A DNA stretch of 64,000 nt, from positions 1,948,869 through 2,012,868 of the forward strand of contig NZ_DS022299.1 of the NCBI RefSeq assembly GCF_000153825.1, in the 5' to 3' direction. Under the pieces are notes generated by a model. It was not told the origin of the DNA. It searched no databases and was given only the letters and a program-made list of their open reading frames with translations. This DNA comes from Synechococcus sp. RS9916. Lineage in GTDB: Bacteria > Cyanobacteriota > Cyanobacteriia > PCC-6307 > Cyanobiaceae. The translations under genes and the position numbers were made by a program. Below, one piece after another: positions 12,148 to 33,543 of this stretch. The stretch's first letter is position 1. The number at the start of each line of letters is the position of its first letter.

Positions 12148-15100
12148 ATGAACAACCTGCTAGAGCTTCTCACCCTTCGATGGCTGCGCCCCAGAAGCGA
12201 GCACGCGCTTGACCAGGCGTCGGCCTCTCCTCCAGCCTTCGATCTCGCCCAAGGCAGGGCAAACGCTGGCAAGCAAGAGCATTACGTCTTTTTTGCAGGC
12301 AATGATTCCGATGCAAGCCTGAGCAGCAGATCAGCAAAAGCACTCAAAGCCGCGGGCATCACCACAACACCCAGTCGCTCCTACGACGCCATCAACGGCT
12401 TCAGCATTCTGCTCACCCCAGAGCAAGCAGAAGCCCTGAAACAAAGTCCGGGCATCAAGAGCGTGGAGGCCGACCGCCCCATGCCCTTTAGCCCACCGGT
12501 TGAGGTGCAACCCGCCAATGGCGGCTCAACGCTTTCACCAAGCCCACCTCAAAGACACTCAGCGTGGCTTGAACATTCTCGAGATCCTCTCAACCAAGCA
12601 GTGCGCTTGGAGCAGGTCTGGGTTCATCAGCAGAGCCCGCTTCTGAACCCTGGGCAAAGTCTTCGCGGGCCCAATGCGATTGAGCTCAGCGCGCTGCCGA
12701 TCTACAACAACGGCACCGCCAACAGCGGTGAAGTGCTGCCCTATGGCGTTAAAGCCGTCTGGGGCGGCGAAGACGTCTCAGCTAGGGGAAACATCGGTAC
12801 CGGCACCTACGCCTTTGTGATCGATTCCGGTGTTCTCAACACCACAGGCGACCTCAACATCAACACCAGCTGGTCCAAAAGCTGGATCAGCGGCGAAAGC
12901 GCCTTCACCGATGGCAACGGTCACGGCACCCACGTGGCGGGCACGATCGCAGCGCTCGCGAATGACAAAGGGGTCGTTGGAGTCGCGCCTGGAGCTGAGG
13001 TTATCTCACTAAAGGTCTTCGACAGCACTGGCGGAGGAGCAAGCTACAGCACCATCATTGATGCCATCAATCACGCCACTCACGTGATCAACAACAACGG
13101 CTTGGACAAGTCGAAGGTGGTGATCAACATGAGCCTTGGGGGCGGCTATAGCGCTGGCCTCGATCAGGCCGTTAAAAACGCAGCCAATCAAGGCATCAAA
13201 TTCGCCATTGCTGCTGGCAACAGCGGCGATGACGCCGACTACTACTCACCAGCTAGCGCAGGTGATCACGAAAACGTCTACACAGTTTCAGCAGTCGACA
13301 ACGTTTATCAAATGCCCTGGTGGTCCAATTGGGACGACCAAAGTGGCGGCGACGATGTAGATGTTGCAGCGCCTGGCGTTGGCATCTATTCGTATCACCA
13401 AGGTGGACAACTTGCCTACCTAAGCGGGACCTCGATGGCAGCACCGCATGTAGCGGGGCTGCTGCTGATAGGAGGAATCGAAGAAGGAGAGATGGTGAAA
13501 GCAGCAAGTAGCGGTCAAAGCGACCCATTTGCACACATCAAAACTGATGGAGCAGGATCTCAACCACATCGGCCCGGACAAAAAGATCACAACTATATTT
13601 ACTCATTTTATGGAGCAGCGCACAAAGAAAAAATCATCACGATATCAAATGGAAAGGGCTCTATTAAGCAGAACGAACTAGAAATGAAATTAGGGCTAAC
13701 AAGTGGAAGCTTGGACTCAACATTGAATGGCACAAAAGAATCAATTGATGCGGTAGAAGGATCTGCCATCCTTGTTCAAGGACTTGCGGGCGCAGGCGAC
13801 ACAATCAGCTTCGCCTACTCATTCAAGTCAGATGATGCTCCCCCATACAATGACTTTGCATTTTACGCCGTGAATAACAAAGCATTCACAATTACATCCG
13901 CAGGACAACACAATTCAACAGAGAGCAGCAAGAATGGTGTATTTTCACACACACTAACAGAGCAAGATTTCAATGGGTCCAATTCAGGAGACCTTTCTTT
14001 TTCAATAGGCGTTCTTGATGCCTTAGACGCACTATTTAACTCAACACTAGAAGTTTCAGACTTTAAAATTCAATGGACAACAAAAGACATTGACAAAGAT
14101 GGGCTCGTAGACAACAGACCTTATTATCAAATCTATAGCAATGGCCAAGCCTTAACTCTCAAAAGTTCGTCTGGCACGACTTACTCTGATTCATACTCGC
14201 AGTCTTGGGATGTCATCGCCGCAAAAGCCTATGGCTCCGGCTTCAAAGTTCTCCTCGATGGAGACTCCTCTCACGAAAATAACTTCTACATTTGGGATAC
14301 AAACTCAGATGGAATCATCACCAACGGCTCCGGATGGCAGTCAAGAGAAAAAATGATGACTCTCGGCTATGAATCATTCTTCCAAACTGATTTCAACCAA
14401 GATGGCATCACAGGCATCACTGACATTGACAACAATGGGCTCGTAGACAATACCTCTACCTACCACATCTACAACAATGGCCAAGCCTTAACTCTCAAAA
14501 GTTCGTCTGGCACGACTTACTCTGATCCATACTCGCAGTCTTGGGATGTCATCGCCGCAAAAGCCTATGGCTCCGGCTTCAAAGTTCTCCTCGATGGAGA
14601 CTCCTCTCACGAAAATAACTTCTACATTTGGGATACAAACTCAGATGGAATCATCACCAACGGCTCCGGATGGCAGTCAAGAGAAAAAATGATGACTCTC
14701 GGCTATGAATCATTCTTCCAAACTGATTTCAACCAAGATGGCATCACAGGCATCACTGACATTGACAACAATGGGCTCGTAGACAATACCTCTACCTACC
14801 ACATCTACAACAATGGCCAAGCCTTAACTCTCAAAAGTTCGTCTGGCACGACTTACTCTGATTCATACTCGCAGTCTTGGGATGTCATCGCCGCAAAAGC
14901 CTATGGCTCCGGCTTCAAAGTTCTCCTCGATGGAGACTCCTCTCACGAAAATAACTTCTACATTTGGGATACAAACTCAGATGGAATCATCACCAACGGC
15001 TCCGGATGGCAGTCAAGAGAAAAAATGATGACTCTCGGCTATGAATCATTCTTCCAAACTGATTTCAACCAAGATGGCATCACAGGCATCACTGACATTG

Positions 15101-16098
15101 ACAACAATGGGCTCGTAGACAATACCTCTACCTACCACATCTACAACAATGGCCAAGCCTTAACTCTCAAAAGTTCGTCTGGCACGACTTACTCTGATTC
15201 ATACTCGCAGTCTTGGGATGTCATCGCCGCAAAAGCCTATGGCTCCGGCTTCAAAGTTCTCCTCGATGGAGACTCCTCTCACGAAAATAACTTCTACATT
15301 TGGGATACAAACTCAGATGGAATCATCACCAACGGCTCCGGATGGCAGTCAAGAGAAAAAATGATGACTCTCGGCTATGAATCATTCTTCCAAACTGATT
15401 TCAACCAAGATGGCATCACAGGCATCACTGACATTGACAACAATGGGCTCGTAGACAATACCTCTACCTACCACATCTACAACAATGGCCAAGCCTTAAC
15501 TCTCAAAAGTTCGTCTGGCACGACTTACTCTGATTCATACTCGCAGTCTTGGGATGTCATCGCCGCAAAAGCCTATGGCTCCGGCTTCAAAGTTCTCCTC
15601 GATGGAGACTCCTCTCACGAAAATAACTTCTACATTTGGGATACAAACTCAGATGGAATCATCACCAACGGCTCCGGATGGCAGTCAAGAGAAAAAATGA
15701 TGACTCTCGGCTATGAATCATTCTTCCAAACTGATTTCAACCAAGATGGCATCACAGGCATCACTGACATTGACAACAATGGGCTCGTAGACAATACCTC
15801 TACCTACCACATCTACAACAATGGCCAAGCCTTAACTCTCAAAAGTTCGTCTGGCACGACTTACTCTGATTCATACTCGCAGTCTTGGGATGTCATCGCC
15901 GCAAAAGCCTATGGCTCCGGCTTCAAAGTTCTCCTCGATGGAGACTCCTCTCACGAAAATAACTTCTACATTTGGGATACAAACTCAGATGGAATCATCA
16001 CCAACGGCTCCGGATGGCAGTCAAGAGAAAAAATGATGACTCTCGGCTATGAATCATTCTTCCAAACTGATTTCAACCAAGATAAACTCATTAATTAA
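12148..16098 (+). CDS. subtilisin-like (S8) serine protease with six tandem Trp/Asp-rich repeats
   Basis: A 1316-residue protein. Residues about 45-110 resemble an I9 propeptide (YVFFAGND, GFSILLTPEQAEALK). The peptidase domain has D226 (FVIDSG), H259 (GHGTHVAGT), the oxyanion Asn in AIAAGNSG and S429 (SGTSMAAPHVAG), so it should be active. A linker domain of about 200 residues follows, then from residue 647 six 112-residue repeats. Each repeat has calcium-site-like loops (DIDNNGLVD, DTNSDGIITN, DFNQDG) and Trp/Tyr-rich strands that resemble the tryptophan-rich C-terminal repeats of cyanobacterial surface proteins. No classical signal peptide is seen, so export may use a non-Sec route (inference). 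Codon use and A/T content from about 13.5 kb on differ from neighbours. An ecotin gene converges on it. Confidence 0.88.
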   Translation: MNNLLELLTLRWLRPRSEHALDQASASPPAFDLAQGRANAGKQEHYVFFAGNDSDASLSSRSAKALKAAGITTTPSRSYDAINGFSILLTPEQAEALKQSPGIKSVEADRPMPFSPPVEVQPANGGSTLSPSPPQRHSAWLEHSRDPLNQAVRLEQVWVHQQSPLLNPGQSLRGPNAIELSALPIYNNGTANSGEVLPYGVKAVWGGEDVSARGNIGTGTYAFVIDSGVLNTTGDLNINTSWSKSWISGESAFTDGNGHGTHVAGTIAALANDKGVVGVAPGAEVISLKVFDSTGGGASYSTIIDAINHATHVINNNGLDKSKVVINMSLGGGYSAGLDQAVKNAANQGIKFAIAAGNSGDDADYYSPASAGDHENVYTVSAVDNVYQMPWWSNWDDQSGGDDVDVAAPGVGIYSYHQGGQLAYLSGTSMAAPHVAGLLLIGGIEEGEMVKAASSGQSDPFAHIKTDGAGSQPHRPGQKDHNYIYSFYGAAHKEKIITISNGKGSIKQNELEMKLGLTSGSLDSTLNGTKESIDAVEGSAILVQGLAGAGDTISFAYSFKSDDAPPYNDFAFYAVNNKAFTITSAGQHNSTESSKNGVFSHTLTEQDFNGSNSGDLSFSIGVLDALDALFNSTLEVSDFKIQWTTKDIDKDGLVDNRPYYQIYSNGQALTLKSSSGTTYSDSYSQSWDVIAAKAYGSGFKVLLDGDSSHENNFYIWDTNSDGIITNGSGWQSREKMMTLGYESFFQTDFNQDGITGITDIDNNGLVDNTSTYHIYNNGQALTLKSSSGTTYSDPYSQSWDVIAAKAYGSGFKVLLDGDSSHENNFYIWDTNSDGIITNGSGWQSREKMMTLGYESFFQTDFNQDGITGITDIDNNGLVDNTSTYHIYNNGQALTLKSSSGTTYSDSYSQSWDVIAAKAYGSGFKVLLDGDSSHENNFYIWDTNSDGIITNGSGWQSREKMMTLGYESFFQTDFNQDGITGITDIDNNGLVDNTSTYHIYNNGQALTLKSSSGTTYSDSYSQSWDVIAAKAYGSGFKVLLDGDSSHENNFYIWDTNSDGIITNGSGWQSREKMMTLGYESFFQTDFNQDGITGITDIDNNGLVDNTSTYHIYNNGQALTLKSSSGTTYSDSYSQSWDVIAAKAYGSGFKVLLDGDSSHENNFYIWDTNSDGIITNGSGWQSREKMMTLGYESFFQTDFNQDGITGITDIDNNGLVDNTSTYHIYNNGQALTLKSSSGTTYSDSYSQSWDVIAAKAYGSGFKVLLDGDSSHENNFYIWDTNSDGIITNGSGWQSREKMMTLGYESFFQTDFNQDKLIN
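14086..16098 (+). repeat. six tandem 336-bp direct repeats inside the protease gene
   Basis: Units start at 14086, 14422, 14758, 15094, 15430 and 15766, each 336 bases (112 codons) except the last, which ends in the stop codon. By eye the units are identical except for the first ~57 bases of unit 1, one T-to-C change at 14527 in unit 2 (Ser to Pro) and the final codons of unit 6. Such identity, including silent positions, points to very recent expansion or ongoing homogenisation. Copy number in the real genome may differ if the assembly collapsed or expanded the array. Confidence 0.97.
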
Positions 16099-19605: not shown

Positions 19606-21279
19606 GTGGCGAATGCAAGCCCACGGCCAAGGCCCCGCGCCCTTGCCATCCTTCCGGAAGAGCAGGCTGCCGCCGCCATGGAACTGCGCAGGGATCTCGG
19701 GCTCAAGAGCCTCACCATGGCCGTAGTGACCGGCACGATCGGCTCGGGCTGGTTGTTTGCCTCCTACTTCGCAGCCAAAAGTGCCGGAGCCATCAGCCTG
19801 CCGGCCTGGGGCCTCGGAGGCGTCATCGCTTTTTTGCTTGCCCTGGTGTTTGCCGAACTGGGATCGCTGATCAACAGCTCCGGCGCCCTCGCCCAGATCC
19901 CGTTACTCAGCCACGGGCGCCTGGCCGGCTTCATCGGCGGCTGGAGCATCTGGATCAGCTACCTGTGCGTGCCGACGATCGAGCTGTTGGCGATGATCGA
20001 CTACCTGGCCAGCAGCGTGCCCTGGTTGACCCGCGACCAACACGGCGTGCAGGTGCTGAGCGGGCCTGGGCTGGCGGTGGCCTTCGCGCTGATGCTGCTA
20101 TTCACCTGGATCAACCTCAATGGCATCAAGGGGCTGGCCCGATGGATCGACAACCTCACGATCTGGAAGCTGATCGTGCCCCTGTTGGTGGCCGGGGTGC
20201 TGATGGCCCTCAGCGGCCACTGGGGCAATCTCCAGATCCCTGTGCATCACGCCACCCAGGTCGCAGCTGGGGGCAACGGACCAGCCCTGGACCTGATGGC
20301 AGCCGTCGGCAGCGGCGGCATCCTCTTCTGCCTGTTGGGATTCCGCACAGCCGTCGACCTCGCCGGAGAAGCCCGCAACCCTCAGCGCAACGTTCCCCTG
20401 GCCATGGGCCTCGGACTGGGCATCAGCCTGCTGATCTATCTGGTGCTACAGCTGTCGTTTCTAGTGAGCGTTCCCCCGGATCTACTCCAGAACGGTTGGC
20501 ATCACTTGCAACTCAACCAGCACGGCGGCCCCCTGGCGGCCCTCGCCCTGGGGCTTGGCTTGGGATGGATGGTGGTGCTGTTGTTGATCGATGCCGCCCT
20601 CTCTCCCAGCGCCACGGCCATGGCCTACCTGGGAGTCTCAGCCCGCGTGAGCTGGATGATGGGCCGCTGCCAACTGCTGCCCAAGCGCTTCGGGCACGTG
20701 AACCGCAAAGGCGTCCCCGATGTGGCGGTGATGGCCAGCCTGGTGGTGGGTGCAGCAATGCTTCTCGTGGGCCCCGGCTGGCAACAGGTGGTCGCCTTCC
20801 TCACCGCCGCCCAGATGATCGCGCTAGCCATGGGACCCCCCAGCCTGCTGGCCCTGCGCCGCCAGCTACCCAATGAGACAGGTCATTTCCAGCTGCGCTG
20901 GGCCACGGTGATCAGCGCCCTGGCCTTCGTGGCAGCCAGCTGGGCCTGCAATTGGTGCGGTCGCATCGCCTTGGAAGGCGCCGTCGTGGCCATCGGCCTT
21001 CCAAGCCTGATTTACGCCACCGCCTGCTGGATCCGCCGTCAACCGATCGACACCCGGGCCGGCGCTTGGTGGGCTCTTTATCTGGGCGTGCTCGTGCTCG
21101 ACATGGAATTGTTCAGCGCCGGCCGGCCTCTGGCGTTGGGCACTGGCATGCATTTGCTGGTTCTGGCCGGCCTGTCATTACTGGTGCTACCAGTGGCCGT
21201 GCACACAGCACTGCCGGTGGTTTCCCCCCATGCGCTAACGAGCCTGGGAACGACAACCGCAGCAGCGACAAGCCGCTAG
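19606..21279 (+). CDS. APC-superfamily amino acid permease
   Basis: A 557-residue membrane protein with about 12 hydrophobic helices. Helix 1 carries AVVTGTIGSGWLFAS, the broken-helix GxG substrate motif of APC transporters. The family moves amino acids or polyamines in symport or antiport with protons. The substrate is unknown; the layout is most like aspartate or general amino acid permeases. The start is GTG at 19606; an ATG at 19678 (MELRRDLGLKS) is an equally plausible start. It ends just before the decayed urtE fragment that is on the other strand. Confidence 0.88.
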   Translation: MANASPRPRPRALAILPEEQAAAAMELRRDLGLKSLTMAVVTGTIGSGWLFASYFAAKSAGAISLPAWGLGGVIAFLLALVFAELGSLINSSGALAQIPLLSHGRLAGFIGGWSIWISYLCVPTIELLAMIDYLASSVPWLTRDQHGVQVLSGPGLAVAFALMLLFTWINLNGIKGLARWIDNLTIWKLIVPLLVAGVLMALSGHWGNLQIPVHHATQVAAGGNGPALDLMAAVGSGGILFCLLGFRTAVDLAGEARNPQRNVPLAMGLGLGISLLIYLVLQLSFLVSVPPDLLQNGWHHLQLNQHGGPLAALALGLGLGWMVVLLLIDAALSPSATAMAYLGVSARVSWMMGRCQLLPKRFGHVNRKGVPDVAVMASLVVGAAMLLVGPGWQQVVAFLTAAQMIALAMGPPSLLALRRQLPNETGHFQLRWATVISALAFVAASWACNWCGRIALEGAVVAIGLPSLIYATACWIRRQPIDTRAGAWWALYLGVLVLDMELFSAGRPLALGTGMHLLVLAGLSLLVLPVAVHTALPVVSPHALTSLGTTTAAATSR

Positions 21280-21289
21280 AAATGACTTC

Positions 21290-21373
21290 CCCAGGACGTC
21301 CTCAAACGCTCAGGAACTGACCCACCACCGACTGGCTGAGGGCACAGGTGGGACTACTGGTGAGCTCATGCCC
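21290..21373 (-). pseudogene. urtE: relic of a second urtE 3' end
   Basis: About 84 bases match the last ~80 bases of urtE (23087-23172) at most positions. They share the stretches CTCAAACGCTCAGGAACTGA and CCACCACCGACTGGCTGAGG on the plus strand, and the match continues through a decayed copy with a 2-base insertion. Similarity stops abruptly on both sides. The relic lies directly behind the second urtA copy. This is where a urtE tail would sit if the whole urt operon had been duplicated in tandem and urtB-D plus most of urtE then deleted. It is not functional. Confidence 0.8.
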
Positions 21374-21396
21374 TGGAGGCGACATCAAGCAAGCGA

Positions 21397-22908
21397 TCAG
21401 AACCTGTACTTCTCGCCCTTGGAGGCGTCCGTCCAATCGCATGCATAACCCTTGGAGTAGGGCTGGTATTGGTTCCAAGCCTGAGGATCCACAGGACCAT
21501 TGGTCGCCGCAACGATCTCGAACTGTCCCTCGGCATTGATCTGGCCGATGCGCACGGTCTGGGACAGGTGGTGGTTGGGCATCACCTTTACAGGGCCTTG
21601 CGGCGCGTCGAACTCGATACCAACCAGGGCCTCACGCACCTTGTCGTTGTCAAAGCTATTGGCCTTCTCAGCGGCCTTCTTCCACAGGTAGACCATGTTG
21701 TAAGCCGACTCCTGGGGGTCAGCCACCACACGGTCGACTCCGTACTTGGCCTTGAAGTCAGCCACGAAAGCCCTGGAAGCGGGCGTATCGATCGACATCA
21801 TGTAGTTCCAAGCGCCGTAATGGCCCTCCAGGAACTGAGAGCCGATTGCCCTAATCTCTTCTTCCGCGATGGAATAGCTCATCACGTAGTAACCATTGGC
21901 AGGAGTAAGACCGGCGTCCTGAATCTGCTTGAAGAAGGCAACGTTCTGATCACCATTCAGAGTATTGATGATCACACCACCATCAGGGAGAACTCTCTTG
22001 ATCTTGGCGATGATCGGAGCAACCTCAGTGTTACCCAGAGGCAAGTAGTCCTCACCAACAACTACGCCACCCAGAGACTTAAGTTGTTCCTTGGTGATGG
22101 TGTTGGACGTGCGGGGGAAGACGTAGTCCGAACCCACAAGGAAGAAGGGCTTGCCAGCAGCAGGCGACTGCTCATACATGAACTTGGTGGCAGGCTCCGA
22201 CTGCTGGTTCGGAGTCGCACCGGTGTAAAAGATGTTGTTGGAGCACTCCTGCCCCTCGTACTGAATCGGGTAGAAAAGAAAAGCGTTCTTCGACTCGTAG
22301 ACCGGCAGCATCGCTTTGCGACTCGCTGAGGTCCAGCCACCAAAGACGACGGGCACGTTGTCCTGATCGATCAGCTTCTTTGACTTCTCAGCGAAGGTGG
22401 GCCAGTCGGAAGCACCATCTTCAATGATGTAATCGATTTTGTACGTCCTGCCGCCAACCTCAACACCGCCAGCAGCATTGATCTCATCGATCGCCATCTT
22501 CTCAGCATCCACCAGAGTGGATTCAGAGATGGCCATCGTGCCAGTGAGGGAGTGGAGGATACCAACAGTCACGATGCTGGTATTGACCTGCTCAACAACA
22601 GGCTGGACCACCTCAGAATCACGATCTTGACGGGAGAGATTAGGGCTGTCAGGCAGAGGCATCGAAGGTTGGCGCCCATTGAAAACAACAAGAGCCGCAA
22701 GACCCAAACCAGAAACAAGGATGGGAAAACCAACTAATAGTGCAACAACGAAAACAACCTTCGAAAACCCGGAAGAATCCTTCGCCTCAGAAGGCTGACT
22801 CTTCGCAGACGAGGAGCTGTTGTCAATCGAGCGCAGAAGAGAATCAGCTTGATCAACAAGATCAGACAATTTCTTATCTTCACCAGATCGAGAATCTTGC
22901 TCACTCAT
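21397..22908 (-). CDS. membrane-tethered UrtA-like urea-binding protein paralogue
   Basis: A 503-residue protein. Residues 1-50 are polar and cytoplasmic in style, 50-76 are a single transmembrane helix (VVFVVALLVGFPILVSGL), 77-111 are a Pro/Ser/Gln linker, and from about 112 (TVGILHSLTGTMAISE) to the end it is a periplasmic type I binding protein nearly identical to UrtA at 26927-28237. It lacks the lipoprotein signal of UrtA and is instead anchored by an N-terminal helix. ATG at 22908 is chosen because GGAAGG lies 7 bases upstream; two earlier codons are possible. It follows urtE after 178 bases on the same strand. It may feed UrtBC with a different ligand or affinity; this is inference. 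Confidence 0.85.
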   Translation of the reverse strand: MSEQDSRSGEDKKLSDLVDQADSLLRSIDNSSSSAKSQPSEAKDSSGFSKVVFVVALLVGFPILVSGLGLAALVVFNGRQPSMPLPDSPNLSRQDRDSEVVQPVVEQVNTSIVTVGILHSLTGTMAISESTLVDAEKMAIDEINAAGGVEVGGRTYKIDYIIEDGASDWPTFAEKSKKLIDQDNVPVVFGGWTSASRKAMLPVYESKNAFLFYPIQYEGQECSNNIFYTGATPNQQSEPATKFMYEQSPAAGKPFFLVGSDYVFPRTSNTITKEQLKSLGGVVVGEDYLPLGNTEVAPIIAKIKRVLPDGGVIINTLNGDQNVAFFKQIQDAGLTPANGYYVMSYSIAEEEIRAIGSQFLEGHYGAWNYMMSIDTPASRAFVADFKAKYGVDRVVADPQESAYNMVYLWKKAAEKANSFDNDKVREALVGIEFDAPQGPVKVMPNHHLSQTVRIGQINAEGQFEIVAATNGPVDPQAWNQYQPYSKGYACDWTDASKGEKYRF

Positions 22909-23086
22909 CATCAAACCTTCCACCAGGCTGTCACTTTAAACAACCAAACAGCAGGCCGAAATACCTGGAAACAGCCAACCCGCCAGGATCGATGCCACGC
23001 CGGAAGGATGAAACGGCTCAGCCCCAAGGCTTAAGAAGCAACCCGCGCCACGGAACAGGCAGCGCAGGCACTTTCTCAGGACGCCC

Positions 23087-23797
23087 TCAAACGCTCAGGA
23101 ACTGATCCACCACCGACTGGCTGAGGTCACTGGTCGGGCCGCTGGCGACGATGCCGCCCCGCTGCATTGCGTAATAGCGATCGGCCTGACGCACAAAGTG
23201 CAGATGCTGTTCCACCAACAACACACCAATGCCGGTCTCGGCGATGATCCGCCGAACGGCCGCCTCGATGTCCTGCACGATGTTGGGCTGAATGCCCTCC
23301 GTGGGTTCATCCAAAAGCAGCAACTTGGGCTTGCCCAACAGGGCTCGAGCAATCGCCAGCTGCTGTTGTTGGCCGCCGCTCAGGTCACCGCCCTTGCGCG
23401 GCAGAAACTCCTGCAGGATCGGGAACAGCTCATACACAAACGGATCGATGCGGCGGTTGCGTCCCAGCCCTCCGGGCAAGGCCTCCATGCCCAGCATCAG
23501 ATTTTCCTCAACCGTGAGCTGCGGAATGATCTCCCGACCTTGGGGCACATAACCGACACCGGCCCGGGCCCGTTGGTGAGGCGCCTGACGATCCCAACCA
23601 TCGCCGTTGAACACGATCTCGCCAGCACGCGGCCGCAACAGACCGATCAACGACTTGAGCAGCGTGGTTTTGCCCACACCATTGCGACCGATCAGGCAGA
23701 CCATCTCACCGGCCTTCACGGTGAGGTCCACATCCCGCAGGATGTGGCTCTCGCCGTAATAGGTGTTCAGCCCGCGGATCTCCAGAAGCGTCGTCAT
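23087..23797 (-). CDS. urtE: urea ABC transporter ATP-binding protein UrtE
   Basis: A 236-residue ABC ATPase of the LivF type: Walker A GRNGVGKTT, signature LSGGQQQQ, Walker B LLLLDEPTEG and a switch His. It energises the branched-chain-amino-acid-like Urt importer together with UrtD. ATG at 23797 overlaps the urtD stop by 4 bases. Its last ~80 bases recur as a decayed fragment at 21290-21373. urtE closes the conserved urtABCDE order. Confidence 0.95.
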   Translation of the reverse strand: MTTLLEIRGLNTYYGESHILRDVDLTVKAGEMVCLIGRNGVGKTTLLKSLIGLLRPRAGEIVFNGDGWDRQAPHQRARAGVGYVPQGREIIPQLTVEENLMLGMEALPGGLGRNRRIDPFVYELFPILQEFLPRKGGDLSGGQQQQLAIARALLGKPKLLLLDEPTEGIQPNIVQDIEAAVRRIIAETGIGVLLVEQHLHFVRQADRYYAMQRGGIVASGPTSDLSQSVVDQFLSV

Positions 23798-24549
23798 CCG
23801 TTCTCCTCCTCCGTGGTTCCGAGATACACCTCAATCACCCGTGGATCGGCCTGCACCTGATCCATCGTTCCCTCGCAGAGCACATGGCCTTGGTGCAGCA
23901 CCGTCACCGGGCTTTCCAAGCGGCGAATGAATTCCATGTCATGTTCGATCACGAGAACGGTGTGATCCCCCGCCAACGACTTGAGCAAATCGGCGGTGAG
24001 ATCCGTCTCCTCATCGGTAAGACCCGCCACCGGCTCATCGACCAGCAACAGATCGGGATCCTGACCCACCAACATCGCAATCTCGAGCCACTGCTTCTGG
24101 CCGTGAGACAGCGCACCAGCGGGCCAGTCGGCACGGGTCTGCAGGTTGACGATGCCCATCAAGTGCTGAACCCGATCACGCTGCTCAGCACCAAGACCAC
24201 GGAACAACAACGGCAACGGTTGCTTGGGGCGACTCACCGCCAAAGCCAGGTTCTCCTGAACCGTGAGCTTCTCGAACACCCGGGGGCTTTGAAACTTGCG
24301 ACCGATGCCCAAGCGTGCAATGCGGTGCTCACGGATTCCCACCAGGGAGCGGCCCTTGAACACCACGTCACCTTCGGTGGGAGCGGTCTTCCCGGTGATC
24401 ACATCCAGGAAGGTGGTCTTACCGGCCCCGTTCGGACCGATCACCGCCCGCAGCTCACCGGGCTGCAGGCTGAGGTTGAGATCCCGCAGCGCCAGGAAGC
24501 CATCAAAACTGACGGTGATCTGACGCAACTCCAACAGGGGAGCACTCAT
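23794..24549 (-). CDS. urtD: urea ABC transporter ATP-binding protein UrtD
   Basis: A 251-residue LivG-type ABC ATPase with Walker A GPNGAGKTTF, the family's long middle segment, the modified signature LSHGQKQWLE and Walker B LLLVDEPVAGL. The substitution of His for Gly in the signature (LSHGQ) is usual in UrtD. It pairs with UrtE as a heterodimeric motor. It overlaps both urtC and urtE by 4 bases (ATGA), so the three are probably translated in series. Confidence 0.95.
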   Translation of the reverse strand: MSAPLLELRQITVSFDGFLALRDLNLSLQPGELRAVIGPNGAGKTTFLDVITGKTAPTEGDVVFKGRSLVGIREHRIARLGIGRKFQSPRVFEKLTVQENLALAVSRPKQPLPLLFRGLGAEQRDRVQHLMGIVNLQTRADWPAGALSHGQKQWLEIAMLVGQDPDLLLVDEPVAGLTDEETDLTADLLKSLAGDHTVLVIEHDMEFIRRLESPVTVLHQGHVLCEGTMDQVQADPRVIEVYLGTTEEENG

Positions 24550-25673
24550 GGCTGCACCTCCTCCTGACCATCAATTTCCAGTTGGGGATAGGTGCCGATC
24601 CGGCGCGACAAACCCAACCGAGACAACAGATTGCGAGGGCCATCGGTACGGAACCAACCGAACACGCCTTCAGGGAGCGCGGTCACCACAAGGATGAACA
24701 AGGCGCCCTGGATGAACAGCCAGCCCTCTGGCATCACCTCACTGACCAGGCTCTTGGCGTAATTGATACCAACGGCACCGAAAATCGCGCCCACCAAGGT
24801 GCCGCGACCCCCAACAGCCACCCAGATCACCATGTCAATCGACATCGGCACCTCCATGAACTGCGGCGAGGCGCTGCCGGACTGAACGGTGTAGAGGGCT
24901 CCACCAATCCCCGCCAGAGCACCGGCGAGACCAAACACGAGGGTTTTGAACAATGTGGGATTAAAACCAGCAAAACGCAGCCGCGGTTCGTCATCACGGA
25001 TGGCAATCAGCACATCACCAAAGCGACCACGCACCACCCAGCGCAGGAAAGCCCAAACCAAAATCACCACCACGGCAGTGACCCAGAAGAACCAGCGCTG
25101 CATCAATTCGGAGCCCACGTACTGACCGAACAATTTGGTGGCCGGTGTCTGCAAGCCGTTGGTGCCGTTGATCAGTTTCTGCTGGCCGTTGAAGAAGTTG
25201 TAAAAGACGAGCAGAGCGGCCTGAGTGAGGATCGAGAAATACACCCCCTTGATCCGGTTACGGAACACCAGACCACCCAAAACGGCTGCCAGAAGACCGG
25301 GGACCAGCCAGATGGCCACCAACGTGAACCATGGCGAGGCAAAGGGGTGCCAGAAGAACGGCAGCTCACTCACGCCGTAAAGACTGAAAAATTCGGGAAT
25401 TCCATTGAGAAGATCGCCAGAGCTGCTGAGCTGTAGATACATGGCAGCCGCATAACCACCCAACGCGAAGAAAATTCCCTGACCAAGACTGAGCAGGCCG
25501 GTAAAACCCCAGATCAGATCGATGCCGAGCGCCACGATCGCCAAAGCCAGAAAACGACCCAGCAGATTCAGCCTGAATTCAGACAGCACCGCAGGGGCCG
25601 CCACGATCGCGGCAATGATCACCACCCAAAGCAGAAGCTGACGCCAACGGCTCTGTTGAAGAAGGTTGAACAT
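24546..25673 (-). CDS. urtC: urea ABC transporter permease UrtC
   Basis: A 375-residue LivM-type permease with about ten hydrophobic helices and the conserved cytoplasmic coupling region (GRFGDVLIAIRDDEPRLRFAG, about residues 215-235). With UrtB it forms the membrane channel of the high-affinity urea importer. The ATG start lies 4 bases after the urtB stop and the stop overlaps urtD. Confidence 0.95.
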   Translation of the reverse strand: MFNLLQQSRWRQLLLWVVIIAAIVAAPAVLSEFRLNLLGRFLALAIVALGIDLIWGFTGLLSLGQGIFFALGGYAAAMYLQLSSSGDLLNGIPEFFSLYGVSELPFFWHPFASPWFTLVAIWLVPGLLAAVLGGLVFRNRIKGVYFSILTQAALLVFYNFFNGQQKLINGTNGLQTPATKLFGQYVGSELMQRWFFWVTAVVVILVWAFLRWVVRGRFGDVLIAIRDDEPRLRFAGFNPTLFKTLVFGLAGALAGIGGALYTVQSGSASPQFMEVPMSIDMVIWVAVGGRGTLVGAIFGAVGINYAKSLVSEVMPEGWLFIQGALFILVVTALPEGVFGWFRTDGPRNLLSRLGLSRRIGTYPQLEIDGQEEVQP

Positions 25674-25677
25674 CTGA

Positions 25678-26832
25678 TCAGGCCTCCACCATGCGTCCCT
25701 TCTGCGGGAACATTCCCGCAGGACGGAACTGCAAAAACGCCACGATCAGAGCGAAAATCATCACTTGAGCCATGCTTGTGGTCGCAAAGAAAGTCACGGC
25801 CTCCGACAGAGGAGCAGGCATGTCGGGCCAGAGCGTGAGCAAACGACCGGCCCCGATCAGATCCGTGAGCCAACCGATGGCGAAGGAGGCCAGCACCGTG
25901 CCGAACAAATTGCCGACGCCACCAAGCACCACAACCATGAAGCAGCCCACGATGTAAGAGCCACCAACATTCGGGCCGACGGACCCCAACAGGGACACAG
26001 CCACACCGGCCACGCCGGCCAACCCGGAACCAATGCCAAAGGTGAGCACGTCGACGGTGTCGGTGGGAATCCCCAGGCAGTCACTCATCGAACGGTTCTG
26101 GGTGACGGCGCGAATACGCATGCCCCAGACGCTGCGGTTCAGGAACCAGGTGACCCCAAGCACCGCCACGACGGTGACCGCAATGATCACCAAGCGCGGC
26201 ACCGGGAAGGTCATGCCGACCAAGTCGATGCCGCCGCGCATCCACTGCGGGGCCGTGACATCCACATTGCGGGCATCCGCCTTCGCCAGCCGGCTGATCT
26301 GAGCAGCCAGCCCATTCGCCAGCACCACGCCACACAGGGCCGCGATGCCCCAACTTCCTGCACGCACGAGGCGTGAGCGAGGGCCGTCCAACCAACGATC
26401 CGGGAGGAACAACGGCAGCCCGAAGCCCAGCACAAGGGCAAGAATCAATCCAGCCGCGCTGGCCATCGGGACGCTGCGCACGAACTGCTGAAGGATCAAG
26501 CTGACCCCCCAGGTCGCCAGCAACGTCTCCAAGGGACTGCCATACAAACGGCGAATCACCGTGCGTTCCAGCAGCACTCCCACAACGCCACTGACGATGA
26601 AGGCAACGGGAATCGCCACCAACACATAGAGGTTGTAGAGAGGCGCCAAGGCGGGCAGCTTGAAAATCAGCTGCACCACAAAGGTGGTGTAGGCCCCGAG
26701 CATGATCAGCTCACCATGGGCGAGGTTGATCACACCCATCAGGCCAAAAACAATGGCCAGTCCAAGGGCGGCCATCAGCAGCACTGAGCCGATGGCGACG
26801 CCGTTGAACAGGCTTTCAAAGAGCAGTTGCAC
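25678..26832 (-). CDS. urtB: urea ABC transporter permease UrtB
   Basis: A 384-residue LivH-type permease. The N terminus (GLAIVFGLMGVINLAHGELIMLGAY) is the family hallmark and the last third has the coupling segment. The start is GTG at 26832. A 94-base gap with a stem-loop separates it from urtA, whereas the following genes abut. This suggests that urtA mRNA is partly terminated or protected here so that the binding protein is made in excess. Confidence 0.95.
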   Translation of the reverse strand: MQLLFESLFNGVAIGSVLLMAALGLAIVFGLMGVINLAHGELIMLGAYTTFVVQLIFKLPALAPLYNLYVLVAIPVAFIVSGVVGVLLERTVIRRLYGSPLETLLATWGVSLILQQFVRSVPMASAAGLILALVLGFGLPLFLPDRWLDGPRSRLVRAGSWGIAALCGVVLANGLAAQISRLAKADARNVDVTAPQWMRGGIDLVGMTFPVPRLVIIAVTVVAVLGVTWFLNRSVWGMRIRAVTQNRSMSDCLGIPTDTVDVLTFGIGSGLAGVAGVAVSLLGSVGPNVGGSYIVGCFMVVVLGGVGNLFGTVLASFAIGWLTDLIGAGRLLTLWPDMPAPLSEAVTFFATTSMAQVMIFALIVAFLQFRPAGMFPQKGRMVEA

Positions 26833-26860
26833 GACGGCTGAAACGAAGCGTTCAGGAAAA

Positions 26861-26894
26861 CCACAAAAGGAGGAGCCCGAAAACGGGCCCCTCC
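26861..26894 (-). terminator. stem-loop in the urtA-urtB gap (attenuating terminator or 3' stabiliser)
   Basis: On the minus strand an 11-base stem with one A-C mismatch and a 4-base loop (26869-26894) follows urtA and is followed by TTTT (26865-26868). The T-run is short, so partial termination or 3'-end protection is more likely than full termination, since urtB-E have no other clear promoter. The pairing is seen; the role is inferred from the usual excess of binding protein over permease. Confidence 0.6.
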
Positions 26895-26926
26895 ATTCCG
26901 GAAAGATTCAGGCTTTGATCAGAGGA

Positions 26927-28237
26927 TCAGAGCTTGTACTTGCCGCCCTTAGAGGCATCAGTCCAGTCGCAGGCGAAACCGGTGGAATCAGGGTGGATCT
27001 GGTTCCAAGCCTGAGGAGAGATGGGGCCGTCGGTCTCTTCAAGGATGGCGAACTGACCATCTTTGGTGATCTGACCAATCCGAACGGTCTGCGACAGGTG
27101 GTGATTCGGCATCACAGTGACCTTGCCCTGGGGCGCATCAAATTCGATGCCGACCAGAGCTTCACGCACCTTGTCGTTGTCGAAGCTGTTGGCCTTCTCG
27201 ACGGCCTTCTTCCACAGGTAGACCATGTTGTAAGCCGACTCCTGAGGGTCAGCCACCTGACGATCGGCGCCGTACTTGGCCTTGAAGTCAGCAGCGAACT
27301 TCTTGGAAGCAGGCGTATCGATCGACATCATGTAGTTCCAGGCGCCGTAATGGCCCTCAAGGAACTCAGGTCCGATCGTGCTGATCTCTTCTTCCGCGAT
27401 GGAATAGCTCATCACGTAGTAGCCGTTGGCAGGGGTGAGACCGGCGTCCTGAATCTGCTTGAAGAAGGCGACGTTCTGGTCACCATTCAGGGTGTTGATG
27501 ATCACACCACCGTCAGGCAGAGCCTTCTTGATCTTGGCGATGATCGGAGCCACCTCGGTGTTGCCCAAGGGCAGGTAGTCCTCGCCGACCACCTTGCCGC
27601 CCAGCTGTTCAACCTGAGCTTTGGTGATGGTGTTGGAGGTGCGGGGGAAGACGTAGTCCGAACCCACAAGGAAGAAGGGCTTGCCAGCGGCAGGCGACTT
27701 CTCATACATGAACTTGGTGGCAGGCTCCGACTGCTGGTTCGGAGTCGCACCGGTATAGAAGATGTTGTTGGAGCACTCCTGACCCTCGTACTGAATCGGG
27801 TAGTAGAGGAAGGCGTTCTTCGACTCGTAGACCGGCAGCATCTCCTTACGGCTCGCCGAGGTCCAGCCACCGAAGACGACAGGCACGTTGTCCTGATCGA
27901 TCAGCTTCTTCGACTTCTCAGCGAAGGTGGGCCAAGACGAAGCGCCGTCTTCGACGATGGTTTCGATGGTGTATTTCTTGCCGTCAACTTCAACACCACC
28001 GGCGGCGTTGATTTCTTCAATCGCCAACTCTTCAGTGTCGACAAGCGTCTTCTCGGAGATCGCCATCGTGCCGGTCAGGGAGTGCAGGATGCCGACGGTG
28101 ACGGTGCAGTTTTCGCCATTGGCATCGCACTTGGCGTTGGTGGCAGCTTGATCGCCACCGCCACAAGCCGTCACGGCAAGACCCAGCGAACCAGCAGCGA
28201 GACCGGCAAATAGACGCTTGGAAAGAGAGGAGCTCAT
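26927..28237 (-). CDS. urtA: urea ABC transporter substrate-binding lipoprotein UrtA
   Basis: A 436-residue periplasmic binding protein. The N terminus has a lipoprotein signal ending in the lipobox AVTAC, so Cys 25 is probably lipidated. The mature part (TVGILHSLTGTMAISEKTLVD onward) is a type I binding protein of the amide/urea class. It delivers urea to UrtBC. It is first in the urt operon, with possible NtcA sites upstream. A paralogue with a membrane anchor lies at the far end of the operon. Confidence 0.96.
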   Translation of the reverse strand: MSSSLSKRLFAGLAAGSLGLAVTACGGGDQAATNAKCDANGENCTVTVGILHSLTGTMAISEKTLVDTEELAIEEINAAGGVEVDGKKYTIETIVEDGASSWPTFAEKSKKLIDQDNVPVVFGGWTSASRKEMLPVYESKNAFLYYPIQYEGQECSNNIFYTGATPNQQSEPATKFMYEKSPAAGKPFFLVGSDYVFPRTSNTITKAQVEQLGGKVVGEDYLPLGNTEVAPIIAKIKKALPDGGVIINTLNGDQNVAFFKQIQDAGLTPANGYYVMSYSIAEEEISTIGPEFLEGHYGAWNYMMSIDTPASKKFAADFKAKYGADRQVADPQESAYNMVYLWKKAVEKANSFDNDKVREALVGIEFDAPQGKVTVMPNHHLSQTVRIGQITKDGQFAILEETDGPISPQAWNQIHPDSTGFACDWTDASKGGKYKL

Positions 28238-28315
28238 TTAAATGCGCAACACAGTGCTGAACGGACGTCGAACGACGAACGAATCAAGACCATGGCCACG
28301 AGCTCAATTCGGAAA

Positions 28316-28331
28316 TGTATCAACAGGAACA
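28316..28331 (-). promoter_or_regulatory. NtcA-like operator, urtA-proximal
   Basis: On the minus strand TGTT-N8-TACA, seven of eight positions of the extended NtcA consensus TGTA-N8-TACA, about 80 bases before urtA. A weak -10-like CATGGT follows the TAC after 22 bases, the spacing of NtcA-activated promoters. Sequence match only. Confidence 0.45.
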
Positions 28332-28368
28332 TTTTCCCGAAAATTCCCGATCCGCGAGGCCAGTGGAT

Positions 28369-28974
28369 TCAGCAGTTTGGTAAGTGCCGATACACAAAGT
28401 CAGCTACTCGCTCGAGGCCCTCACCACTTTGAAGATTGGTAAAGCACCAGGGACGCTCCCCACGCATGGCCAACGTGTCGTGCTCCATCACCGCGAGATC
28501 GGCTCCAACCAACGGAGCGAGATCAATCTTGTTGATCACGAGCAGATCAGATCGGGTAATGCCAGGCCCGCCTTTACGCGGAATCTTGTCCCCAGCCGCT
28601 ACGTCAATCACATAGATGCAGAGGTCCACCAACTCAGGGCTGAAGCTGGCAGCCAGGTTGTCGCCACCGCTTTCCACCAGCACCAGATCCAGGCCCGGGA
28701 ACTGGTCCTCCAACTCAGCAACAGCAGCACGATTGATCGAACAGTCCTCACGAATCGCCGTGTGAGGACACCCACCGGTCTCGACCCCGCGGATGCGCGC
28801 CGGCTCCAACGCCCCAGCACGGATGAGGAACTGGGCATCCTCCTGCGTATAGATGTCGTTGGTGACCACCGCCAGCTGCAGCTGATCACGCAGCCGCCGG
28901 CAGAGCGCCTCCACCAGCGCGGTTTTGCCAGAGCCCACCGGACCGGCGACCCCCAGGCGCAGCTTGCTGCCCAT
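28369..28974 (-). CDS. ureG: urease accessory GTPase UreG
   Basis: A 201-residue GTPase with P-loop [10 protein letters not shown], the metal-binding-type motif [14 protein letters not shown] and NKIDLAP for guanine. It supplies GTP energy for nickel insertion into urease together with UreE, UreF and UreD. Its start overlaps the ureF stop (TGATG). An exact NtcA-like site lies in its 3' end, ahead of urtA. Confidence 0.96.
28380..28393 (-). promoter_or_regulatory. exact GTA-N8-TAC NtcA consensus, urtA-distal
   Basis: An exact GTA-N8-TAC lies in the last codons of ureG, 143 bases before urtA. Its centre is 63 bases (about six helical turns) from the proximal site. Exact matches occur by chance about once per 4 kb, so the paired placement is the only support. 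Confidence 0.4.
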
Positions 28975-29645
28975 CAGCTTCGGAACAATCGGGAATACAA
29001 CTCAGCATGAGCCAACTGGGCGAGGGATGCCCCCACGCCTCCGGTCCAGAGCTCGCGGGGATCCTGCCCCAACAGCTGATGCGCCTGATCCACGATCAAC
29101 GGTAGAAGGCGCTGCTGCTGCACCTGGGCCCGGGTGGGACCCAGCGGCACCAGACGCACCGCCGCACTGAGCTGGTTGGCAACCCAGCCGTAGAGGTAAC
29201 CCTCCACCATCTCCTGCACCGGCACGTTCAGGGAAACTGCCGCCCAAGCCCAAGCCGCCGGCCAAGCGAGAGGAACGCGCTCAGGCAATGGATGACCCAT
29301 GTCGGCGAGCAACTGCAGCAAGGAACCCCCCATCTGCCGCTGCTGGGCCCGAACCTCCGCCGCTTCCCGCGTGGCCAAAAGCCAGCCATCAAGGTCGACG
29401 ATGCGCCGGCAGACGGACTGATCAGTGGCGCCTTGCCAACGGTTCAGATCGTCAGCGAACAGCGACAGGGCCGCAGCCTCCACCCGCAACGTCCCCCGCT
29501 CCAGCTCGGCCCTCAACCACTGCTCGAGGGTCGCTTCATCCTTCAGGGCTCCAGCCTGAACCAACACCTCCAGTCCCTCGGAATAACTGAAGGCACCCAC
29601 CGGCAGGGCCGGACTCACCAGCTGCAGTAAGGCGAGCGAGGTCAT
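28974..29645 (-). CDS. ureF: urease accessory protein UreF
   Basis: A 223-residue all-helical protein with the family start [20 protein letters not shown]. UreF bridges UreD and UreG on the urease apoprotein and gates GTP hydrolysis during nickel insertion. It overlaps ureE by 4 bases and ureG by 1-3 bases, so ureEFG form one minus-strand operon divergent from ureDABC. Confidence 0.94.
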
Positions 29646-30133
29646 GAAGGCGCGTGGCTATGCGTGTGGTTATGGGTATGGCCACCGCCATAAGCCCCGC
29701 CCTCCGGCAGGAAGGGCCGTTCGCAGTGGCTCACCATCAGCCCCCGGCTCTCCAACATCTGCTGCAGCACCGAATCGTCCAGCAGCAACAATTCCCGCTC
29801 ATGCAACTCAAGCGCCACGTGGCGATTGCCCAGGTGATAGGCCGCCTGCAGCAGCTCCAACGCTGAGGTGCCCTGCACCCGCAACAGGGGCTCAACTGCT
29901 GCCACCACCGCCACCTGCACGCCACCACCGCCATCCGTGAGCCGATCGCCAGGCTGCAAGGCCCCATCCCGTGGCAACTGCAGCAACACATCACGGCCAC
30001 AAAGGGTGCGCCGGCGACCCCGCAGCACGGTGCGTTGCTCGGCCGTCAGCGGCAGTTGCAGGCCTGTGGGCTCTTCAGCGCCAGGAGGCGGTGACGACAA
30101 ACGCCGCACGAGTTCAATCACCGCCTCAGCCAT
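29642..30133 (-). CDS. ureE: urease nickel metallochaperone UreE
   Basis: A 163-residue protein with the UreE N-terminal strand domain (RGRRRTLCGRDVLLQLPR), the C-terminal ferredoxin-like domain (LLQAAYHLGNRHVALELHE) and a His-rich tail (HTHNHTHSH) that binds nickel. It delivers nickel to the UreGFD complex. The ATG at 30133 faces ureD across about 90 bases; it overlaps ureF by 4 bases. Confidence 0.93.
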   Translation of the reverse strand: MAEAVIELVRRLSSPPPGAEEPTGLQLPLTAEQRTVLRGRRRTLCGRDVLLQLPRDGALQPGDRLTDGGGGVQVAVVAAVEPLLRVQGTSALELLQAAYHLGNRHVALELHERELLLLDDSVLQQMLESRGLMVSHCERPFLPEGGAYGGGHTHNHTHSHAPS

Positions 30134-30221
30134 GGCCGCTCTCCGTCCAAGCCAAGAGTGCCTAGCCGATCGACCGGATTTTGGTGTGCGTTGCTACAGG
30201 CTGGCGCACCCACCGCCGCCG

Positions 30222-31178
30222 ATGGTGATCTCTATGCAGCGACCCGATCCCTGGCACGGCCATTGCCAACTGCAGTTTCAGCACCACGGTGATCGCACCC
30301 GTCATCAGGGAGGCTGCAGCGCTCCTTTCAAGCTGCTGCGCGCTGAGCACGGCGCCGACGGACGCTGCGAAATGCCACTGCTGCATACAGCGGGCGGCCT
30401 GGTGGGCGGTGACCAGCTGAGCATCCACTTGGACCTTGGTCCAAACAGCCGCGGCCTGGTCACCAGCGTGGCCGCCCAGAAGGTCTATGGCTCCATCGGC
30501 CGCAGCCAGGTGCGTCCGGAGGGCAGCTGGGCCAGGCAACAGGTGGATTGCCAGCTGGCCCCTGGAAGCGATCTGGAATGGATGCCCCAAGAGCTGGTGC
30601 TCTACGCCGACGCGCTCTATGAACAGCACGTTCAAGTGCAACTGGCCGCCAACGCGTCGTTTCTCAGTGCCGAAATCGTTCGCTTCGGCCGCACCGCCGC
30701 CGGGGAAACACTGGCGGCAGGGCGGTGGCGCTCAAGCCTCGCCATCCAGCGCCTCAACGAGGATCCCCACGCGCCATCGCGGTGGGAACTGGTGGATCGG
30801 CTCGAACTCGGAGGTGCCGGCCTGAACGATCTGCACGGCCTGAACGGCCAGCCGGTGTTCGGCACATTGGTGTGGGCGGCCCCAACCCCGTTACAGCCCG
30901 ACCAATTGGCGCAAATGTTGCGTGAGGCGCGAGCAGACCGCGAAGGCCTGGAAGGGACCATGCGCTGCAGCGTCTTGGGGCAGGGCCTTGTGGCCCGCTA
31001 TGCCGGCCCCTCCAGCCGCGATGCCCGCTTCTGGTTCAGCCGCCTGTGGGAACGAACGCGCCACTTACGCGGCCTGAGCCAACCGCAGATCCCACGGGTC
31101 TGGCCCTTGCAGGAACAGCCCTTACGGCGATCAATGTCCACAATGAACACTGCACAAGCAACGCCAGCGACACACTGA
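30222..31178 (+). CDS. ureD: urease accessory protein UreD
   Basis: A 318-residue beta-rich protein with the UreD features FKLLRAEH, MPLLHTAGGLVGGDQL and the region VAAQKVYGS. It binds the apo-urease trimer and scaffolds UreF and UreG. ATG at 30222 is preferred; the ATG at 30234 (MQRPDPWHGH) is an alternative. The frame extends upstream but overlaps ureE there. The shared ureE/ureD gap contains GTG-N8-TAC (30184-30197), one mismatch from NtcA consensus, which is weak evidence. Confidence 0.92.
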   Translation: MVISMQRPDPWHGHCQLQFQHHGDRTRHQGGCSAPFKLLRAEHGADGRCEMPLLHTAGGLVGGDQLSIHLDLGPNSRGLVTSVAAQKVYGSIGRSQVRPEGSWARQQVDCQLAPGSDLEWMPQELVLYADALYEQHVQVQLAANASFLSAEIVRFGRTAAGETLAAGRWRSSLAIQRLNEDPHAPSRWELVDRLELGGAGLNDLHGLNGQPVFGTLVWAAPTPLQPDQLAQMLREARADREGLEGTMRCSVLGQGLVARYAGPSSRDARFWFSRLWERTRHLRGLSQPQIPRVWPLQEQPLRRSMSTMNTAQATPATH

Positions 31179-31196
31179 TAACGACCGAGGCTTCCC

Positions 31197-31499
31197 ATGC
31201 ATCTCAGTCCCCAGGAAAAGGACAAACTGCTGATCGTGACCGCAGCCTTGCTGGCGGAACGACGGCTGAACCGCGGCCTCAAGCTCAACCACCCGGAGTC
31301 CGTGGCCTGGCTGAGCTTCCTGGTGCTGGAAGGCGCCCGCGATGGCAAAAGCGTGGCAGAGCTGATGCAGGAAGGCACCACCTGGCTGCGTCGCGACCAG
31401 GTGATGGAAGGGGTCCCAGAGCTCGTGCACGAGGTGCAGATCGAGGCGGTCTTCCCCGATGGCACCAAGCTCGTCACCCTGCACGACCCGATTCGCTGA
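31197..31499 (+). CDS. ureA: urease gamma subunit
   Basis: A 100-residue protein that is the standard length of bacterial Ure[22 protein letters not shown] at the start and HDPIR at the end. With UreB and UreC it forms the (alpha-beta-gamma)3 urease that splits urea into ammonia and carbamate. It starts 18 bases after ureD and is followed by ureB after 10 bases. Confidence 0.97.
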
Positions 31500-31509
31500 G
31501 GCAGAACCC

Positions 31510-31830
31510 ATGGCACCTCTCATTCCAGGCGAACTGTTTTCCGAACCGGGTGAACTGGAGCTGAATGCAGGCCGACCCGTCACCACGGTGAGCGTCGCCA
31601 ACAGCGGCGACAGGCCAGTGCAGGTGGGCTCCCATTTCCATTTCGCTGAAGCCAACGCCGCCCTGCAGTTCGACCGGGCCGCAGCCCGCGGTCAACGGCT
31701 CGACATCCCCGCCGGCACCGCCATCCGCTTCGAACCCGGTGACAGCCGCGACGTGAATCTGATTCCCTTCGCCGGTGCGCGGCGCGTCATCGGCTTCAAC
31801 GGCCAGATCAACGGACCCCTCGACGCCTGA
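31510..31830 (+). CDS. ureB: urease beta subunit
   Basis: A 106-residue protein starting APLIPGELF, with the conserved core [15 protein letters not shown] and RRVIGFNG. Length and motifs match UreB. The frame opens earlier, but ATG at 31510 gives the family N terminus. ureC starts 3 bases after its stop. Confidence 0.97.
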
Positions 31831-31833
31831 CCC

Positions 31834-33539
<1,706 letters not shown>

Positions 33540-33543
<4 letters not shown>

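Follow-up and report, generated by a model that had tools for sequence, protein, structure and literature searches.

A decayed urtE end behind a second urtA in Synechococcus sp. RS9916, and the possible collapse of a second urea-transporter unit

For marine picocyanobacteria, urea is an important source of nitrogen; it is recognised by the binding protein of the urea transporter. In Synechococcus sp. RS9916, the transporter operon urtABCDE lies in a 64,000-nucleotide stretch of contig NZ_DS022299.1 (positions 1,948,869 to 2,012,868), hereafter the window, in which all coordinates are given. Directly behind urtE stands a second urtA-like gene, urtA2, followed by a short, decayed copy of the urtE end (the scar). 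As a gene remnant, the scar is of an ordinary kind; it marks an old rearrangement. The history tentatively favoured here is the collapse of a second urt unit, with a later change at the 5′ end of urtA2 and an exchange of the main urtA; the insertion of a foreign urtA2, somewhat less probable, ranks close behind.

A direct repeat of the urtE end

The repeat and its surroundings comprise the following features.

21285..21363, minus strand: scar, a decayed copy of the final 62 coding bases of a urtE with the 17 bases after its stop
23070..23148, minus strand: intact urtE end and 17 bases past its stop, the reference copy of the repeat
21364..21396, minus strand: junction from the urtA2 stop to the scar, 33 bases, the first ~12 resembling relatives' urtA 3′ flanks
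21397..22908, minus strand: urtA2, a UrtA domain (residues 113-503) with an N-terminal extension, 503 amino acids from ATG
23087..23797, minus strand: urtE, TIGR03410 at 325.5 bits (cut-off 285.8)
19606..21279, plus strand: amino-acid permease gene (PF13520), convergent to the urt genes and touched by the scar

The two copies of the urtE end form a direct repeat, which aligns without gaps and is identical at 68 of 79 positions (86%). The initial annotation had proposed a match between 21290-21373 and the urtE end, including the stop region, and had suggested aligning the two regions. The match and its inclusion of the stop region are borne out, since the repeat begins 17 bases beyond the stop; its extent is corrected to 21285-21363, as the ten bases beyond 21363 agree at 2/10. 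The local alignment scores 103, against 30 for the best of 1000 dinucleotide shuffles, and a 117-base query (21280-21396), searched at an E limit of 0.001 in the 2.66-Mb single-contig genome (G000), matches only itself and the urtE end (E 1.4e-20). Shuffles and genome-wide search together rule out a match of chance length, the outcome that would have undone the original proposal.

Compared with urtE, a transporter ATPase gene (TIGR03410), the scar has the same end and the 17 bases that follow it, and keeps 62 of the 711 bases of the gene. It is a pseudogene fragment of urtE, similar to it beyond chance and no longer an intact gene. Five of the eight coding differences between the copies are non-synonymous (codons read by hand, over few sites), as expected of a decaying remnant. 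The scar agrees with its own genome's urtE tail at 54 of 62 coding bases and with 31 other tails and relics at 50 or fewer, the next best being those of genome G012 and locus L002 (50 each). The two copies also share 14 of the 17 bases past the stop, a flank that was not recognised by eye in the 31 other flanks inspected. By these comparisons, the scar seems to derive from the urtE of this lineage itself. A literature search for a urtE pseudogene in Synechococcus, in which subscription journals were thinly covered, gave only a review of synthetic biology, and the scar is not claimed to be unreported.

Three other origins of the repeat have a negligible probability taken together: chance, an artefact of the assembly, and a functional element retained at the ends of both genes. 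An artefact is at odds with a genome in one contig and with copies that are 14% diverged. For a functional element speaks a predicted stem-loop (23069-23041; fold z -2.61), which starts exactly at one repeat boundary and is listed as terminator-like; such sites are not clearly more frequent in the region (11) than in shuffles (7.8 +/- 3.3). Against it, most coding differences of the scar alter the protein, and the predicted fold of the scar region is no more stable than that of shuffled sequences (z -0.10). Nor does an Rfam search at gathering scores give a match in the scar, so that an RNA element there is unsupported.

On the minus strand, the order is urtA, urtB, urtC, urtD, urtE, urtA2 and scar, then the convergent permease gene. 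As all urt genes are on this strand, the scar does lie directly downstream of the second urtA in the sense of transcription, as first described. The order and strand of urtE, urtA2, urtE end, and permease fit a collapsed tandem unit.

The first 12 bases after the urtA2 stop match, in register, the urtA 3′ flank of G003 at 11 of 12 positions, among 43 flanks compared. Among shuffles in which the first two bases were kept, so good a match occurs at a rate of 0.001, and rates of 0.008-0.09 apply to the four other lengths; the 12-base figure is the best of five lengths tried and its significance depends on the length. About 12 bases of urtA-type 3′ flank may, on this evidence, follow the urtA2 stop. 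The whole 33-base junction was also tried as a urtA flank, but its unconstrained alignment is not above shuffles, and matches of 17-21 junction bases elsewhere were put down to chance. A GC-rich hairpin separates urtA from urtB in the operon itself and, by eye, in most relatives; urtA2 is not followed by it, and the break therefore probably came before the hairpin, with the break point probably within 21364-21396. In the window, this hairpin, with a T run, occupies 26869-26894; it is perhaps an attenuator giving more UrtA than UrtB-E.

The second urea-binding protein and its N-terminus

Two further features bear on the 5′ side of urtA2.

22573..22908, minus strand: N-terminal extension of urtA2, residues 1-112, with a hydrophobic stretch near residues 51-76 and no cysteine
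22909..23069, minus strand: spacer before urtA2, of an origin not traced to urt sequence

The call of a second urtA-like gene at 21397-22908 holds, as its product scores 572.3 bits with TIGR03407 (cut-off 492.75); an alternative GTG start 15 bases upstream of the ATG is possible. The closest named matches are from marine Synechococcus and Prochlorococcus and, among solved chains of UrtA (7s6f, 7s6e, 8hic), the best-scoring one is 7s6f. The urea pocket of the MIT 9313 protein is given as Trp120, Ser122, Tyr141, Gln144, Glu146, Tyr190, Phe192, Asn246, and Ser274 in the available text of PMC10392092. Both UrtA2 and UrtA keep all nine residues, with numbering taken from the 431-residue UrtA of locus L173, which has the same nine residues as that source. 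The ratio of non-synonymous to synonymous divergence (dN/dS) is 0.12 for urtA2 against urtA and 0.07-0.08 against two genes of genus g5; for comparison, urtA gives 0.02-0.04 with G023, G012, and G029, and 0.10 with one g5 gene. Because the ratio stays at 0.07-0.12 in the three pairs and the pocket is kept, UrtA2 looks selected.

UrtA2 differs from UrtA in its cysteine-free 112-residue extension, in having no lipoprotein signal, and in carrying changes at 11 of the 277 sites that do not vary among the other rows of the alignment, where the 44 other rows tested carry 0-6 such changes (the present UrtA 6). For this control, rows at least 94% identical to each target were dropped, an earlier version having been biased by near-identical sisters. 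UrtA of the main operon has a cysteine at residue 25, in a signal end with LAVTAC, which we take to be a lipobox-like motif. In UrtA2, the extension stands in place of this lipoprotein signal end and the first cysteine is residue 222, which leaves the protein without the lipid anchor described for UrtA in the available part of PMC6737895.

The hydrophobic stretch near residues 51-76 is likely a membrane helix. The extension has a third-position GC content (GC3) of 0.42. A complete counterpart of its 112 residues was found in none of the 399 other family genomes, and any match at E 0.01 in five of 400, weak except in G000 itself. The four matches there are urtA2 and three in one cluster of small membrane proteins at G000:C1:111-116 kb, where five anchor-cluster genes have a GC3 of 0.51-0.67. 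Kinship of the extension with the short anchor segments of that cluster is uncertain. The cluster (L139, 4000-9000) encodes small proteins with a common N-terminal membrane-anchor motif (like GFSNQQALLALL..FPIGL) and differing C-terminal parts; anchor clusters resembling it also occur in G029 and G019 (L140, L141).

Upstream of the gene, the spacer, or the 160 bases before urtA2, gave no match in the fetched loci at E 0.5, and these 160 bases gave a single 22-base match in 30 other genus genomes. No exact GTAN8TAC site, presumably an NtcA-type motif, precedes urtA2. Elsewhere in the window, an exact site lies at 28380-28393, within the end of ureG and 143 bases before urtA.

We infer that UrtA2 is a working, membrane-tethered urea-binding protein with somewhat altered constraint, which would serve the same UrtBCDE transporter. 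A more specific reading is unlikely, in which urtA2 is the lineage's own urtA, retained when a relative's allele overwrote the operon copy, and a captured anchor segment akin to those of the separate cluster made its product a membrane-tethered urea receptor. UrtA2 would then be an integral-membrane alternative to the lipoprotein UrtA, with changed transporter contact or a sensing role. An AlphaFold model of UrtA2 (mean pLDDT 54.7) was too poor to be used.

A mosaic urea operon and the age of the scar

The remaining genes of the main transporter operon are as follows.

23794..24549, minus strand: urtD, TIGR03411 above cut-off
24546..25673, minus strand: urtC, TIGR03408 above cut-off
25678..26832, minus strand: urtB, TIGR03409 above cut-off
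26927..28237, minus strand: urtA of the main operon, TIGR03407 at 570 bits, Cys at residue 25

Synonymous differences per site (pS) run unevenly along this operon. Between G000 and G023, windows in urtA, urtB, and most of urtC give 0.15-0.48, and those from the end of urtC through urtE give 0.47-0.66, whereas G023 and G012 compared with each other show no step at the urtC end (0.12-0.45). Among the urease genes, pS to G023 is near 0.6 for ureF and ureD, 0.38 for ureA, 0.08 for ureB, and 0.19 for ureC. An affinity index was obtained for each G000 gene by subtracting its mean pS to G029/G009 from that to G023/G012. It is -0.15 for urtA, -0.19 for urtB, -0.27 for urtC, and -0.13 for ureG, and lies within 0.035 of zero for urtD, urtE, ureF, and urtA2. 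The trees of ureG, urtB, and urtC join G000 to G023 and G012 at 100/99 or better; the best trees of urtD and urtE do not contain this clade, yet do not reject it (p 0.36 and 0.26). The window from 23087 to 33543 is thus mosaic, with ureG-urtC near G023/G012, ureB-ureC near G023, and ureF, ureD, urtD, and urtE near neither. These divergences make an exchange of the ureG-urtC stretch, in which the present urtA lies, probable; the older native allele may then be urtA2.

The same profile could be read as allelic displacement, in which incoming urtD-urtE-urtA2 recombined in urtC/urtD and the scar is the displaced native urtE end. The affinity of urtD, urtE, and urtA2 is indeed distinct from that of ureG-urtC, pS to G023 rises near the urtC end, and a model with anchored illegitimate recombination has been proposed for type VI secretion system (T6SS) loci, according to the available text of PMC5361080. 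A native end should, however, be nearer than the present urtE to the tails of G012, G023, and G029, and the scar agrees with these at 50, 46, and 49 of 62 bases, against 52, 50, and 54 for urtE. As the scar is, moreover, nearest to the present urtE, with which it shares its flank past the stop, displacement appears improbable.

A neutral reading of the 11 differences between scar and urtE end gives ~0.10 changes per site per branch (95% interval 0.05-0.18), on a hand-set split into 46 non-synonymous and 16 synonymous sites and assuming neutrality. The synonymous divergence (dS) between urtA2 and urtA is 0.69 (0.54-0.92), i.e., 0.345 per branch, and that between urtA and G023 is 0.38. The scar looks younger than the split of urtA and urtA2, although few sites are involved; the synonymous dating that the initial annotation had suggested speaks against its simple duplication. 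Over the same 62 bases, urtE of G000 is as far from that of G029 (54/62) as from the scar, so that dating by urtE alone is weak.

The locus in related genomes and its possible history

Related genomes bear on the ancestral state of the locus. The permease gene overlaps urtE by 37 bases in eight of the 22 other genus loci with urtE. It ends ~750-780 bases from urtE in G003, G018, and G019, lies 4-6 kb away in G004 and G023, and was not found above 50% identity in the stretch in nine of the 22. In two of these nine, G009 and G029 (L144 and L143, respectively), a decayed permease remains between pabC and urtE (BLAST with the window's permease, E 6e-21 and 3e-25). We infer from these loci that adjacency of the permease and the urtE end is the older state, and that the scar probably stands where that end stood ancestrally.

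Loss of urt genes can leave a urtE end, as seen in G010. In this genome, urtA is not matched above 47%, nor ureC at E 1e-20, yet ~90 bases of a urtE end remain (L165, ~5960-6048), inside a 197-base match to G004 at 89%. The gene that follows is an orthologue, at 80% identity, of window 35033-35707, which here lies beyond the urease genes. The simplest reading would be a deletion of the urt-ure cluster that ended within the urtE end. Relic and scar are both urtE ends, but the operon is gone in G010 and intact here; the relic is kept independently of the scar. No urtE relic was matched in G002, G008, or G025, in a search that also missed the intact urtE of G015 and G028. G025 carries a stop-ridden fragment like the last 78 residues of ureC (64%; L205, G025:C1:2652002-2652235), a relic of lost urease.

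In the favoured history, a second urt unit would once have stood head-to-tail behind the first. A deletion would have joined a point ~12-33 bases past the second urtA stop to a point 62 bases before the second urtE end, leaving that end beside the permease. In the second urtA, a membrane-anchor extension would have come to replace the lipoprotein signal end, and the ureG-urtC stretch with the present urtA would then have been overwritten by recombination with DNA like that of G023/G012. Because urtA was probably overwritten, urtA and urtA2 are no longer like recent copies.

Several results weigh against this history or against a simple duplication, the first group coming from trees. The binding domains of urtA2 and urtA are 86% identical in protein and 84% in DNA. 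A DNA tree was built from 37 rows, leaving out identical rows and those from L021 upwards. In it, urtA joins G023 and G012 (support 100/99) and urtA2 takes another position; a constraint that unites the two genes has a cost of 115 log-likelihood units (approximately unbiased (AU) test, p 4.15e-5). With 43 rows including genus g5 (without G028, identical rows, and related-locus rows other than L001, L002, and L016, L014 of the lineage's own clade thus also being left out), the cost is 107 (AU p 4.45e-4); G017 was skipped as incomplete. Forcing urtA2 together with G000, G023, and G012 is likewise rejected (p 0.005), and placing it with the wider clade of its own lineage costs 22-32 units, not significantly (p 0.149 and 0.068). 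By segment, with G028 and L012 also left out of the 37-row scheme, sisterhood of the two genes is rejected by columns 1-480 (p 1.1e-4) and 961-end (p 5.3e-4) and not by columns 481-960 (p 0.108); some gene conversion would be compatible with this. Twelve sites carry the majority residue in urtA2 and, in urtA, one that occurs in 2-12 of 101 other rows. The urtA genes nearest to urtA2 are those of genus g5 (G157, G264, G218, G314, G334, G034), at 89-90% identity, although a placement of urtA2 in that genus is not firm.

The second group concerns the locus itself. The urtA2 5′ part with the 160 bases upstream has no likeness to the regions upstream of urtA or ureG, and ~21 junction bases match no explained source. 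In 14 of the 22 genus loci, including those of G023 and G012, nearest by urtA, the permease does not adjoin urtE. The 22 other genus loci that have both urtA and urtE yielded no intact or intermediate second unit, and in each of them urtA2 matches urtA best; no remains of urtB, urtC, or urtD were seen there, and no second urtA2 match above 49% identity in other genus genomes. At E 1e-160, urtA2 is matched in 293 of 400 family genomes, with two copies only in G000, G133, G159, and G396. In the latter three, these are on separate contigs, one G159 copy being at a contig end, and no other adjacent urtA pair was found among the 400. Since the urtD and urtE trees do not reject the clade with G023 and G012, the mosaic rests mainly on pS. 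Any foreign urtA would also be expected to have an affinity index near zero, so the mosaic reconciles collapse with the tree and does not prove it.

The initial annotation had proposed a tandem duplication of urtABCDE, then deletion of all but urtA2 and the scar from the second copy, read here as one recent duplication of the present operon. Order, strand, and the lineage's own urtE end agree with this, and columns 481-960 of urtA2 do not reject sisterhood. The remainder does not hold: the present urtA is rejected as sister in both AU tests, the 5′ flank of urtA2 is unlike that of urtA, the half-dS of the two genes exceeds the divergence of the scar, and the intact or intermediate forms sought in relatives were absent from all 22. 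A simple duplication is, thus, largely refuted unless conversion or exchange followed, and is highly improbable.

The insertion of a urtA2-bearing segment, at first put forward as the less simple alternative, fits almost as well as collapse with overwriting. A foreign anchor-urtA2 fusion would have been inserted behind urtE by illegitimate recombination or template switching, with repair copying the last 79 bases of the urtE region. This could well be the case, since urtA2 is nearest to genus-g5 genes rather than sister to urtA, its extension is of odd composition, nothing upstream of it is urt-like, and the insert is flanked by direct repeats of the target. Homology-facilitated illegitimate recombination is described for naturally competent bacteria in the available parts of PMC3240628 and PMC5361080. 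In addition, according to the available text of a survey of cyanobacteria (PMC6737895), Synechococcus WH8102 has a second urtA (urtA2) well away from its urt locus, and several strains have the urt set in duplicate. The available part of a review, PMC8786288, mentions orphan urtA genes of clade IIIa that lie close to phage genes. The inserted gene would, however, have to be a urtA that came to lie in the right orientation immediately after urtE, whether through coincidence, homology, or selection; the urtA-type 3′ flank that may follow urtA2 also argues against it. A donor was not found: there was no match in 50,697 phage records, no relative in IMG/VR contigs, and no complete extension in the 399 other family genomes. 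Collapse with later exchange, therefore, keeps its tentative first place.

As described in these sources, WH8102 urtA2 and the clade IIIa orphans are, like urtA2 here, extra urtA genes without permease and ATPase genes of their own. The likeness to WH8102 is by description; urtA2 there is far from the main locus, and here directly behind urtE.

Apart from the urt genes, the window contains a glutamine-II riboswitch (Rfam; 34407-34468) closely preceded by an exact GTAN8TAC site (34392) and followed by a small repeat-bearing open reading frame (34489-34656). An Rfam 5_ureB_sRNA match antisense to ureC (31989-32275) may only reflect coding-sequence similarity. A tandem array at 14086-16083 (5.9 copies of 336 bases, 99% alike) lies at the end of an open reading frame, which we take from its sequence to be subtilase-like.

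The locus shows in legible form how a transporter operon can acquire a second binding protein and undergo later reshuffling; the traces are a scar, a fusion-like N-terminus, and a mosaic of divergence. It also carries a warning, as the phylogeny of neighbouring paralogues can mislead when one of them may have been overwritten.

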